From the NCBI RefSeq assembly GCF_018446385.1, contig NC_055988.1, positions 166,182,837 to 166,246,836 on the forward strand: a stretch of 64,000 nucleotides of DNA, written 5' to 3'. Every line of letters starts with the position of its first letter. The first letter of the stretch is position 1. Made by a program: the position numbers and the translations under genes. This document shows positions 4,899 through 8,974 of this stretch, piece after piece. The DNA comes from Zingiber officinale. Lineage: Eukaryota > Streptophyta > Magnoliopsida > Zingiberales > Zingiberaceae. The notes under the pieces are model-generated. The model was not told the origin of the DNA, did no database searches, and was given only the letters and a program-made list of their open reading frames with translations.

Positions 4899-7800
4899 CT
4901 ACTGAAGAGAAGCAGATCCAACCCCCGAACCAGCTCCGTATCCTCCACCTCCACGTCCGAATCCAGGCCTGCTACCAGAACCCTGCACGATAGTTAAAAT
5001 CACATTGTTTCAGTTCCAGCAATGAATAGACAGGAACTACATCATTAAGAGTTGAAACAGGAATTGATTCTACTGTATGTGTCTGTGAACCAGGCCGCAC
5101 AAAGGATTTAAGTTTTTCAGGTCGAACCGATCAAAAGGCTTCCCAAAGGATAAACCATCAGAGATCTCAAGTTTTATCAGCACATAGCTATCTCAGATGA
5201 CCGTCATGAGAATTATAAAATGAGAATGATCATCATTTGATTTCTTCCTTTGCGAATTGAAAGCCAAAAGAAAATAAGTCCTAGCAAAACATCACACAAT
5301 TCAACTTCTCGGTGCCATATCACCTTACCATCGGTGACAAATAGTCTATTTTCTATCCAGAGTACATGCTCTATTTACAGCTTAAGCATCCCATCTATAT
5401 AATACAAACAATAAATCAAAGTGCAAATAAATTTTGGTTCTCAATTTTCAACGTCGAAAAGAAAAAATATTTAATCAAAGAATCAGAAAAGATTCCCAAA
5501 GGGAACACCATCAGAGATCTTGGTTGTATCAGCACAAAGCTATCTCAGACGACCGTCAGTGAGATTAAAAAAAATGGCTCATCACGTGGTTCTCCTTTGG
5601 GATATATGATTAAAAACAATGCAAGAAAACAAAGACATTATTTTTACGAATGTGCCAACAACTTAAATATAAATATATATTTATATATATAGAATATCTT
5701 AGTCAAGTATGCTGGCAAAAGTAAAATGGCATTTGAATATCGATAACAATATTCAGCTGTGTTGCAGTTTGTTAGGCTAAACTTGACATAAACTCAATTC
5801 AACTGTGTTCTCAATTGTAGACAGATTCCAGTTGTCATGAGCATAGTTTGTAGGATAACAATGGATCCTGCACAAGGTTCAATTTGGGATCAAAAATCAA
5901 ATCAATCAGGATTGAATCATAGAAACCCCTTAAAATTTAATTTAATATTTGATAGAATAATGAAATTGATCAATGAAGACTAGATCAATTTGATATTTGA
6001 TTAACATTTTTTTAGAATAAATTAAATCAAATTAATAATAATATTAATAATAATAATAATAATGGCACTAATAGGTTGATATATATATAATTTTAAAATA
6101 AATTGATATATTTTTAATAAGATAATTCGATTAGGATTTAAGGAAAATCCTATTTAAATTATTTTATTTAAGTTAGGAATTGATTGAATCAATTATTAAT
6201 GTTTCAATTAAAAACCTAAAGTTCTCCTTCACTTACACTACCGCCCCTCACCCACACATCCCCCTCTGCAAGGCACGAGAAACCTATAATTCTCCAATTG
6301 TCCCTGCCACGAGAAACTTCACGTGTCCCCCTCTATAAGCCGCCAAGGCCCCTCGATGTTGCCACCCGTAGAGCCCTCTACTGTCACTACCCGTCGATAA
6401 GGTATCTAAAGTTCTCTTACCGCGAGAAACTTCACGTGTCCACTCTACAAGCCATCGGCACCCCTCCACTAATGCTGACCACCGACGAGGACCCGCCGAC
6501 AAGGATAACTAAAGTTCTCTTACCGTCCCTACTGCTAGAAACTTCTTGTGTTCCCTCTACAAGCCATCGGCACCCCTCCGCTGTTGCTGATACAAAGATC
6601 CCTTCAGTTGTCGCTGCCCACCAACATGCACCCCCTACACTGCCTGACACTGCCAGTCGATGAGGACGTTGTCCGTGTCATTGTTCCAACATTGGGTAGA
6701 ATCATTTACAACATAAGATTGTACGATCTCACCGACCTTGTACGATTCCATCAACCCTGTTCCGATTCCACTACAAAATCCAATCTCAATCGATCCCAAA
6801 TCAATTTACTACTTCCGGATCACGAGTCAAAACAAGATTTCGTTATAATGTACGTTAATAAACCAGTGAGCTGCAAGGATTGCAATTTGGTAAAAAGATC
6901 AAATTGAAGCAAAATTTGATTGTCCTTAAAACGGTTAAACCAATGAGCTAACAAATTGCAATATTTCCAGTTGACCATTAGAAATCTAATGCAACTAGGA
7001 GTTTTCTAATGTTCAATTGGACAGCTTCCTGTTATTGGGCTAATCTGATCTAGTTTTGAAACATTTGAAGCTACACTAAAAGTTCCAACAGGGCAAAAAC
7101 CACCAGAGATCTTAGTTTTGAAACAGCTATCTTAGATGACCGTCATGAGATTATAAAAATGTGAATACTCATTTGATTTCTTCCATTGAAATTTGAAAAC
7201 CATAAGAAAGCTCTAGCAAAAATCATGTGTTCAACAATCCTAATTTTTGTTGTCAATGATTCATCTTGTCATTGTTTCACCTTATCGATGGACAATAATC
7301 TAGGATGCATGGGCTATTGCCAATTCAGGCATTTCCTAATTGCACTTTTTTCAGTCAACTTAACAGATTATTCTTGTTCCCAGCTCAATCTGAACTAGTC
7401 TTAAAATACACTTAAAATGACACTAAAGATTCCCAAAGGAAAAAAAAACATCAGAGATCTCAGTTTTATCAGCAAAGAGCTATCTCAGACGACCGTCATG
7501 AGATTATAAAAAAGAGAATACTCATCATTTGATTTCTTCCTTTGAAATTTGAGAACCATAAGAAAGTCGTAATATCCCCCAAGTTTTTGTGGTCAGTGAC
7601 TCACCTTGTCGTTGTTTCCAACCAGGTGTTTTCCATCAATGCCAGATTAATCTGAACTAGTCTTATACACTTAAAATGACACAAAAGATTCCCAAAAATA
7701 CATCAGAGGTTTCAGTTTTATCAGCCAAGAGCTATCTCACACGACGGTCATGAGATTAAAAAAATGTGAATACTCATTTGATTTCTTCCTTTGAAATTTG

Positions 7801-8974
7801 AAAAACATAAGAAAGTCCTAATTTTTTCCCAATTTTTGTGGTCAGCGACTCACTTTGTCACTGTTTCCCTTACCAATGATAAACACTCAAGGATACCTGA
7901 TCTATTTACTGTTTAAGTATTTCCTAAATAATCCAAAATTAAATCAATGTACAATTTCTGTTTTTAGTTTCCTAAGAAAATCAAATCCTAGATGCTTACA
8001 AAAAACATATGGAACAAGATATTAATTTCCCAAACAAACACAACAATTTAAAAAATACAATTAATAATGGCTATAAATTTGACCGAAACATTCTATACCA
8101 AATTGAAGTTTAGCATGCTGTAAACATAAAATATGAATACCAGCAACAATGCAAGACTAGAATCAATGAGGACACAGAAAAGGAATCTCAACTAAAGCAT
8201 GAAAAAGCATTCTTGAATTGCAAAAGGATGCATACCCTGAATGACGGCTGGAATTCAGGCGGGGCGCCGCCCTTGTCACCAAGCTCTCCTGGAGGACCCC
8301 CTGGGCGTGGACCTCCACGATAACCATCCCGATCACCAAATCTCGGTCTGTCTCCCTCAAACCTTGGCGGCCCCCTATCAAGACCACAAAAATATAGCAA
8401 TGCAAGGCGGTACTTATCAACATTTCAGATCGCTGAAGATTGGATAAGTCAAAAGTCACCTGGGACGGTCACCCGGAGGACCAGAGCCAAATGGGCGAGC
8501 GGGAGGCCTAGCAGATTTCTTCAACGTCGCAGGAACAATCTCAGATGGGAGATTAAGGAAAGTTCTGAGGTACTCAATACCATCATTCGTGAGATACCAG
8601 TAATAATGCTGCCAAGCAAAGGTCTCCCTCACGTACTCCCTCGATTTGAAGCTCTGCATCAACTTGATCACCTGCAGATTGGGCACGTCGATCTCCGGAT
8701 GCTTGGCGAGGTTGTAGTCCTTTTTCGCGTAGAGCACTCCCTCTAAACAAATCCAATATTTTTTTTATTAAAAAAACGATCTTTCGTTAGAGAAGGACGT
8801 TCAAGATCCCGATTTGGGACAGGAACACACCTTGAAAGAGGTACTTGCAGATCTCATGGCGATTCTTCTTCGGAATGATCTAGGAGAGGACAGCAAGCAA
8901 AAAAACATTGAATAATTGTTCACATAGAGGAAAGAAACCACGTACGAGGATGAAACAATGGAATTCCTCACCAT
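4899..8974 (-). CDS. RPS10: 40S ribosomal protein S10 (eS10)
   Basis: Exons on the minus strand are 8972-8974 (only the ATG), 8831-8879, 8460-8742, 8236-8374 and 4899-4982. They join in frame to a 185-residue protein, the usual plant length. Residues 1-95 form the S10/plectin domain: [20 protein letters not shown], then [20 protein letters not shown] and [19 protein letters not shown] are nearly invariant in the family. The tail is the usual Arg/Gly/Pro-rich extension ([20 protein letters not shown]). The protein sits on the head of the 40S subunit near the mRNA entry side. The first intron splits the start codon from the rest of the reading frame. The last intron is 3.25 kb, far longer than the others, and carries five copies of a box C/D snoRNA-like unit on the same strand. 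A hAT element lies only about 120 bp upstream of the TATA box. Confidence 0.95.
5152..5242 (-). ncRNA. U35/snR73-like box C/D snoRNA, copy 1 (RPS10 intron 4)
   Basis: On the RPS10 strand the unit has a C box ATGATGA (5230-5236), a D' box CTGA (5193-5196), a C'-like TGCTGATA and a D box CTGA (5158-5161). The flanks AAATCA and TGGTTT can form a six-pair terminal stem with one G-U pair. The 13 bases at 5199-5211 read as antisense just upstream of D' and pair with 25S rRNA GACCGUCGUGAGA, with one G-U pair. By the D+5 rule the methylated base is the first C of GACC, which I count as yeast 25S C2959 (snR73; human U35). The rRNA sequence is recalled, not searched. Confidence 0.72.
5507..5590 (-). 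ncRNA. U35/snR73-like box C/D snoRNA, copy 2, with a distinct second guide
   Basis: This copy has the best boxes: C box GTGATGA (5579-5585), D' CTGA (5545-5548) and D CTGA (5511-5514), with an ACCA/TGGT closing stem. The D' guide (5551-5564) matches the U35 target but with one bulged base. The second guide, next to box D, reads ACCAAGATCT. It pairs for ten bases with 25S rRNA AGAUCUUGGU and then three more after one mismatch. The other copies have diverged at exactly this place. Confidence 0.7.
6283..6660. repeat. Three diverged tandem repeats of about 105-120 bp in RPS10 intron 4
   Basis: Units begin near 6283, 6406 and 6509. Each carries AGAAACTTC, then CTCTA(C/T)AAGCC and CGGCACCCCTCC or a close variant. 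This GC-richer block stands out from the AT-rich intron around it. It gives a 121-codon open frame on the plus strand that matches no family and is antisense to the intron, so I do not call it a gene. The origin is unknown. Confidence 0.55.
7097..7181 (-). pseudogene. Decayed copy 3 of the U35-like snoRNA unit
   Basis: The rRNA-complementary core (GACCGTCATGAGA on the plus strand) is preserved, but the D box position reads CTGG, the D' position CTAA, and the C box has lost three bases (ATGAGTA in place of ATGATGA). It is therefore probably not made into a stable snoRNA. Confidence 0.6.
7445..7535 (-). ncRNA. U35/snR73-like box C/D snoRNA, copy 4
   Basis: C box ATGATGA (7522-7528), D' CTGA (7485-7488) and D CTGA (7451-7454) are intact. 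The D' guide (7491-7503) gives the same 13-base pairing to 25S rRNA as copy 1. Copy 1 and copy 4 are alike over about 150 bases, including downstream flanks, so duplication involved more than the snoRNA itself. Confidence 0.72.
7697..7775 (-). pseudogene. Decayed copy 5 of the U35-like snoRNA unit
   Basis: Box D (CTGA, 7703-7706) remains, but D' reads GTGA, one base inside the antisense core has changed, and the C box is shortened as in copy 3. Copies 3 and 5 share the same C-box loss, which suggests that one derives from the other. Confidence 0.55.

Follow-up and report, generated by a model that had tools for sequence, protein, structure and literature searches.

U35 is a known guide snoRNA that places a single methyl group on ribosomal RNA. 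Copies of human U35 lie in RPL13A and RPS11. The human RNA (RF00211), yeast snR73 (RF01207) and Arabidopsis U35 (RF00328) are placed in one clan (CL00056) and in one row of the compilation in PMC3511168, where human U35 and snR73 share the same large-subunit (LSU) rRNA position; both have host genes other than the RPS10 gene of ginger considered here. Plant snoRNAs are usually polycistronic and few are intronic, according to the account in PMC5122169. In rice, 15 intronic snoRNA loci are described in ribosomal-protein genes (PMC3022908), and these resemble the ginger locus in that plant snoRNAs are nested in ribosomal-protein introns. Maize Zm-19, as reported in PMC6172812, consists of one C/D snoRNA in five tandem copies within one intron and has counterparts in sorghum and rice. 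Zm-19 differs from the ginger cluster in its host gene and in its regular 138-nt interval, whereas the ginger units, detected by a repeat search as five copies of an 84-base unit, start 252 to 1587 bases apart with other DNA between them.

The ginger arrangement is of a kind already known in plants and is otherwise expected in a monocot genome. A literature search by title and start of abstract returned no paper on U35 in a plant RPS10 intron, a result that leaves absence from print unproven, and PMC3412847 does not mention U35 or RPS10.

The RPS10 intron and its five units

The host is almost certainly the ribosomal-protein gene eS10 (RPS10), as indicated by its translation, best protein match and tblastn. 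The coding region occupies 8974 to 4899 on the minus strand of the window (the whole 64-kb stretch of Zingiber officinale DNA that was analysed), with the ATG at 8974-8972 and exons at about 8880-8831, 8744-8459, 8377-8236 and 4982-4899; the top match of the joined exons is the 40S protein S10E of 4v7e (E 4.5e-105). In the 500 bases upstream of the start codon a site II motif occurs once, and telo boxes are absent. The last intron (4983-8235, minus strand, 3253 bases, GTATGC...GCAG), predicted from splice sites and reading frame, very probably carries five U35 units, three of them intact-looking and two decayed. Along the transcript the units follow in the order 5, 4, 3, 2, 1, and they make up a homocluster: several units of one family, on the sense strand, in one intron of a ribosomal-protein gene.

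An Rfam search of the whole window places RF00328 (snoZ161_228, the plant U35 family) above its gathering score of 45 bits twice. A permissive search of 4900-8400 matches all five units, each on the minus strand and hence on the strand of RPS10; copies 4, 1, 2, 3 and 5 score 52.2, 49.6, 43.5, 34.2 and 33.2 bits, with the first two above the cut-off, and the E-values of this search are 1e-8, 5e-8, 1.9e-6, 5.6e-4 and 1e-3. A covariance-model search of the U35/snR73 family was one of the checks that a sequence-only reading of this DNA had named, and its outcome bears out the claim of five U35/snR73-like units on the RPS10 strand of the last intron. The unit positions given in that reading also hold in substance, with each start off by one base and the final end, 7775, short by 9 bases. 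A chance repeat is excluded by the Rfam E-values, and two other snoRNA families, SNORD24 (28.1 bits) and snoZ159 (22.6 bits), stay under their own cut-offs.

The intact-looking and decayed units are told apart by their boxes (C as RUGAUGA; D' and D as CUGA), a test that is passed by copies 1, 2 and 4 and failed by copies 3 and 5. Copy 1 (5153-5243, minus strand), the last in the transcript, and copy 4 (7446-7535, minus strand) have intact C, D' and D boxes and a 13-bp guide with one G-U pair. Copy 2 (5506-5592, minus strand) is likewise intact in C, D' and D, has one inserted guide base and scores below the cut-off. Copy 3 (7098-7179, minus strand), also below the cut-off, has lost C, D' (changed to CTAA) and D (changed to CTGG) and retains the 13-nt guide. 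Copy 5 (7698-7784, minus strand), the first in the transcript and the lowest in score, has lost C, D' (changed to GTGA) and the terminal stem and has a guide mismatch. The loss of box C in copies 3 and 5 is due to a 3-base deletion that is common to both. Lost boxes had been read in these two copies from the sequence alone, and this is what is found: C and D' are gone in both, and D also in copy 3.

The terminal stems of copies 1, 2 and 4 form duplexes of -17.9, -20.4 and -16.1 kcal/mol, values reached by none of 300 shuffles in each case, and extended stems at 0/300 are also present in the C4 alleles of these three copies. The complete boxes and closing stems previously attributed to copies 1, 2 and 4 are confirmed by these values and by the box test. 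The corresponding duplexes of copies 3 and 5 are -12.1 (9/300 shuffles as low) and -6.4 kcal/mol (143/300). Genome-wide, however, a long terminal stem does not reliably indicate function or separate working from decayed units, since the stem is weak in some intact units and strong in an altered-guide unit of an RPS10 paralogue. The stand-alone U35 unit has a stem of -13.0 on C3 (11/300 shuffles as low) and -5.5 on C4 (187/300), and the box- and guide-intact unit of the paralogue has -10.8 on C15 (26/300) and -15.1 on C16 (1/300), while the altered-guide unit of the same paralogue, at -21.0 and -21.3 (0/300 each), has the strongest stem among the 16 units measured.

An alignment of ten box-intact units (nine distinct rows) gives a five-pair closing stem in which 86.7% of the cells are paired and 2 pairs are changed on both sides, the two-sided changes coming from the stand-alone units alone. 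The covariation score of this stem is equalled by 9 of 500 shuffles and the other four pair measures by 26 to 122 of 500; all slid versions of the stem are lower in cells paired and in covariation.

The cluster had also been put forward as the explanation for the length of the intron. The length itself (3253 bases) is correct, and the explanation would apply partly at most, since unit-homologous stretches total 1120 of the 3253 bases, a search for unit homology in the middle 1.4 kb (5640-7040) found none, and long introns without units occur elsewhere. At the seven RPS10 places without units the last intron measures about 0.9 to about 5 kb, two unit-free alleles having introns of about 4 and 5 kb. 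The middle 1.4 kb ends in a repeat that is listed at ten places in the genome, including the window and its allele.

The D' guide and its predicted 25S rRNA target

The target was located with a 24-base 25S pattern, which has one mismatch-free occurrence in the genome. The occurrence sits in a 300-base stretch that matches eukaryotic LSU rRNA in Rfam and belongs to a mosaic rRNA fragment (L019:1263-1707; C22:38.32 Mb), in which a reversed piece of the LSU start adjoins a piece of the LSU end. The first part of the LSU-matching stretch also matches the opposite strand of the LSU start, and the target falls within the second part, about ten bases from the junction. The target motif is absent from a 3.7 kb stretch beside a 5.8S match (L055) and from the 5.8S loci L047 and L048; among five other rRNA fragments (L057-L061), one has a related, diverged stretch at this place and four have no match to the motif. 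A non-exhaustive genome search did not meet an intact 25S gene.

In copies 1, 3 and 4 the guide UCUCAUGACGGUC forms 13 pairs with the 25S fragment of the same genome, one of them G-U, in agreement with the 13-base pairing with one G-U that had been proposed for copies 1 and 4. The guide of copy 2, with one base inserted, forms at most 8 contiguous pairs, one of which is G-U, and that of copy 5 forms 9 pairs, with a mismatch adjoining D'. The D-box guide differs among the copies. The D' guide is complementary to 25S GACCGUCGUGAGA, as read from the mosaic fragment, with the D'+5 position on the C that is assigned to U35 in Arabidopsis: the fifth base upstream of D', as counted by eye, stands opposite the first C of GACCGUCG.

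By the 25S sequence, the sites of Arabidopsis, human, yeast and Neurospora are presumably the same residue. Table 1 of PMC8053127 gives C2960 of Arabidopsis 25S rRNA as methylated and assigns it to U35, which upholds the earlier placement of the D'+5 base on the C guided by snR73 and U35. In PMC3511168 the Arabidopsis U35 site is numbered Cm2949. Cm2949 of PMC3511168 and C2960 of PMC8053127 are taken here as one site under two numberings, because PMC8053127 gives C2949 to SnoR69Y and uses a 25S sequence that differs from the older one. A relative in Neurospora uses its D' guide for 26S-Cm2917 (PMC2780460).

The U35/snR73 identity of the units, as first read from the sequence, is supported in that the covariance-model search (RF00328), the pairing with 25S rRNA, the D'+5 position and the published data, as given in PMC3511168 and PMC8053127, all agree. 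The ginger units share with RF00328 the D' guide and the target site, and all five match the family. They differ from it in that three of the five score under the cut-off, in the guide G-U pair that copies 1, 3 and 4 have, and in the spacer and C' region, which depart from the Rfam consensus.

Relatives, alleles and a stand-alone U35 locus

The assembly searched comprises 3.09 Gb in 211 contigs. The cultivated ginger assembly is described in PMC8342452 as haplotype-resolved, with 22 pseudochromosomes in 11 pairs, and C3 and C4 are probably the two haplotypes of one chromosome. At least 20 units occur in the genome. Five lie in the window and five in the same cluster on the other haplotype (C4); an RPS10 paralogue contributes two on C15 and two on C16, a stand-alone locus one on C3 and one on C4, and C14 and C8 hold two apiece. 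The count is a lower bound, as the family search scored 55 of 529,865 candidates; a further 45-base match listed on C22 lies outside it.

A protein search finds RPS10 at 11 places, which may be read as the gene of the window and five others, namely four allele pairs (twice on C15/C16 and twice on C1/C2) and a single place on C16. Among the five other genes, one on C15/C16 has two units, likewise in the last intron. The copy-1-like unit of this paralogue has intact boxes and guide and scores 40.8 (C15) and 42.9 bits (C16), below the cut-off. The copy-2-like unit has an altered guide and UGAUAA as box C, retains D' and D, and has no Rfam match at E up to 0.05; its guides differ between the two alleles (L025:4544-4630 and L026:4492-4580). 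At the seven other RPS10 places (L040-L046, four genes), a search with model R1 at E up to 1 and with filters off gives no unit match; the same model, built from 10 of the 20 units, finds all 20 across 17 sources. About 1.2-1.3 kb past the end of the C15/C16 paralogue there are matches to U2 snRNA on the minus strand (L025:6701-6875, 98.9 bits; L026:6570-6742, 102.5 bits; cut-off 46), and L026 has an additional weaker match under the cut-off.

A midpoint-rooted tree of the 20 units, in which 4 of the 15 inner branches are strongly supported, joins copy 2 with the first unit of the paralogue (85/92) and copies 3, 4 and 5 with the C8 and C14 units (86/87). From these relationships we infer that a pair of ancestral units probably preceded this RPS10 duplication and that the array then grew by local duplication in the gene of the window. 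The box C deletion is common to copies 3 and 5, yet copy 5 groups in the tree with copy 4 (83/85), where the deletion is absent; the discrepancy may reflect repeated loss, gene conversion or limited resolution of the tree.

The stretch adjoining copy 3 (6793-7091, no strand assigned; query 6790-7085) recurs at eight places besides the window and its C4 allele, three on C8, three on C14 and two on C18. A copy-3-type unit accompanies it at four of the eight (two on C8, two on C14), while C8:37.80 Mb, C14:67.15 Mb and the two C18 places have a partial segment without a listed unit; the first of these was read directly and has the stretch without the unit. At the four unit-bearing places (L021-L024; C14:84.80 and 84.81 Mb, C8:32.09 and 32.11 Mb) the shared segment corresponds to 6793-7436 and runs from the 3' flank of copy 4 across copy 3. 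One foreign flank is common to all four places, and two kinds of flank occur on the other side. A snoRNA-bearing gene fragment with the decayed copy 3 has been captured and has moved to C8 and C14, perhaps within a transposable element. The window allele is without about 50 bases beside copy 3 (at about 6900) still present in the C4, C8 and C14 copies.

The stand-alone U35 unit at C3:158427736 (55.9 bits) lies 7.8 Mb from the RPS10 cluster and has an allele at C4:137383888 (51 bits); the C3 score is the highest among the matches listed. The stand-alone guide forms 13 pairs without G-U, compared with one G-U each in copies 1, 3 and 4. The surroundings of the C3 unit, out to about 1.5 kb, show no other RNA family at E up to 0.1, and a weak snoR64 match falls on the unit itself. 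Within 500 bases upstream there are two telo boxes and one site II motif on both haplotypes, a count made without a chance control; the pairing of telo box and site II motif is described upstream of plant snoRNA genes in PMC3022908. On the strength of its guide, score and upstream motifs, the stand-alone locus would provide the cell with at least one other credible source of U35. The RPS10 cluster need not be the working source, since the stand-alone unit scores higher (C3) or about the same (C4). The combination that the sequence-only reading had set against itself was a true U35 locus elsewhere together with no model match here; a stand-alone locus does exist, and the covariance model does match the intron units.

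A comparison of the two haplotypes of the cluster, with gapped sites left out, gives 2 differences in 267 sites for copies 1, 2 and 4, 5 in 169 for copies 3 and 5 and 122 in 2753 for the remaining intron. Copy 2 has no difference in 87 sites. Copies 1, 2 and 4 are set apart from the rest of the intron at p 0.0017. The stretch 5640-7040 has 93 differences in 1341 sites, compared with 29 in 1412 for the other intron outside the units, and with this stretch removed the contrast loses significance (p 0.21). For copies 1, 2 and 4 versus copies 3 and 5 p is 0.11, and for copies 3 and 5 versus the rest of the intron it is 0.44. Taken together, the comparison points weakly to constraint on copies 1, 2 and 4.

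Competing explanations and meaning of the cluster

The favoured reading, which is very probable, is that of U35 snoRNA units in the last intron, three of them intact-looking. The cluster may instead be a snoRNA graveyard, U35-derived, in which the intronic copies go unprocessed and the stand-alone C3/C4 gene makes all U35 RNA. In favour of this, the stand-alone gene has a guide free of G-U, the highest score among the matches listed and upstream telo boxes and site II motif on both haplotypes (again without a chance control); two of the five intronic copies are clearly decayed, copy 2 has its guide insertion, and the selection test is not significant once the fast-changing stretch is left out. 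Against this, copies 1, 2 and 4 on either haplotype retain all three boxes together with long terminal stems, one unit of the paralogous intron is still intact in boxes and guide, and the decayed neighbours show the form that loss takes, so that wholesale abandonment of the intronic copies appears unlikely. A decidedly unlikely alternative concerns copy 2 and its C15/C16 relative, which would still be made while moving towards a different target or a function other than guiding. Copy 2 has an inserted guide base and none of its 87 sites differing between haplotypes, and the paralogue unit with allele-differing guides keeps D', D and a stem of -21.0/-21.3 (0/300). Allele-differing guides, however, look like relaxed constraint, and the paralogue unit has UGAUAA as box C and is missing from the Rfam matches at E up to 0.05.

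The mobility of part of the intron raises the question of whether the repeats belong to a transposable element or tandem repeat and are merely snoRNA-like. An intron stretch including copy 3 does occur twice on C8 and twice on C14, and a partial stretch without a listed unit occurs on C8, C14 and C18, but the RF00328 E-values down to 1e-8, the target pairing and the boxes make this explanation vanishingly improbable. A transposable-element origin of the whole array is ruled out by the position of units 1, 2, 4 and 5 outside the dispersed segment and by the C15/C16 RPS10 intron, which has units but no match to 6793-6997; a transposable element may nevertheless be behind the spread of copy 3.

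For a U35 cluster in RPS10, a more far-reaching proposal can be framed, although it is quite unlikely to hold in full. A lineage-specific second U35 source, set up inside RPS10, would couple one methylation of 25S rRNA to expression of a 40S protein gene; the copy-2 subfamily, freed by redundancy with the stand-alone gene, would keep its processing stem while its guide shifted to other targets or to none, and the fragment that includes copy 3 would have been carried to other chromosomes. The locus lends itself to the study of how a snoRNA array grows, decays and spreads within an intron of a ribosomal-protein gene when a stand-alone gene of that family is also present. Because the copies differ in sequence from the stand-alone RNA, the guide included, RNA sequencing could show which U35 source ginger uses.
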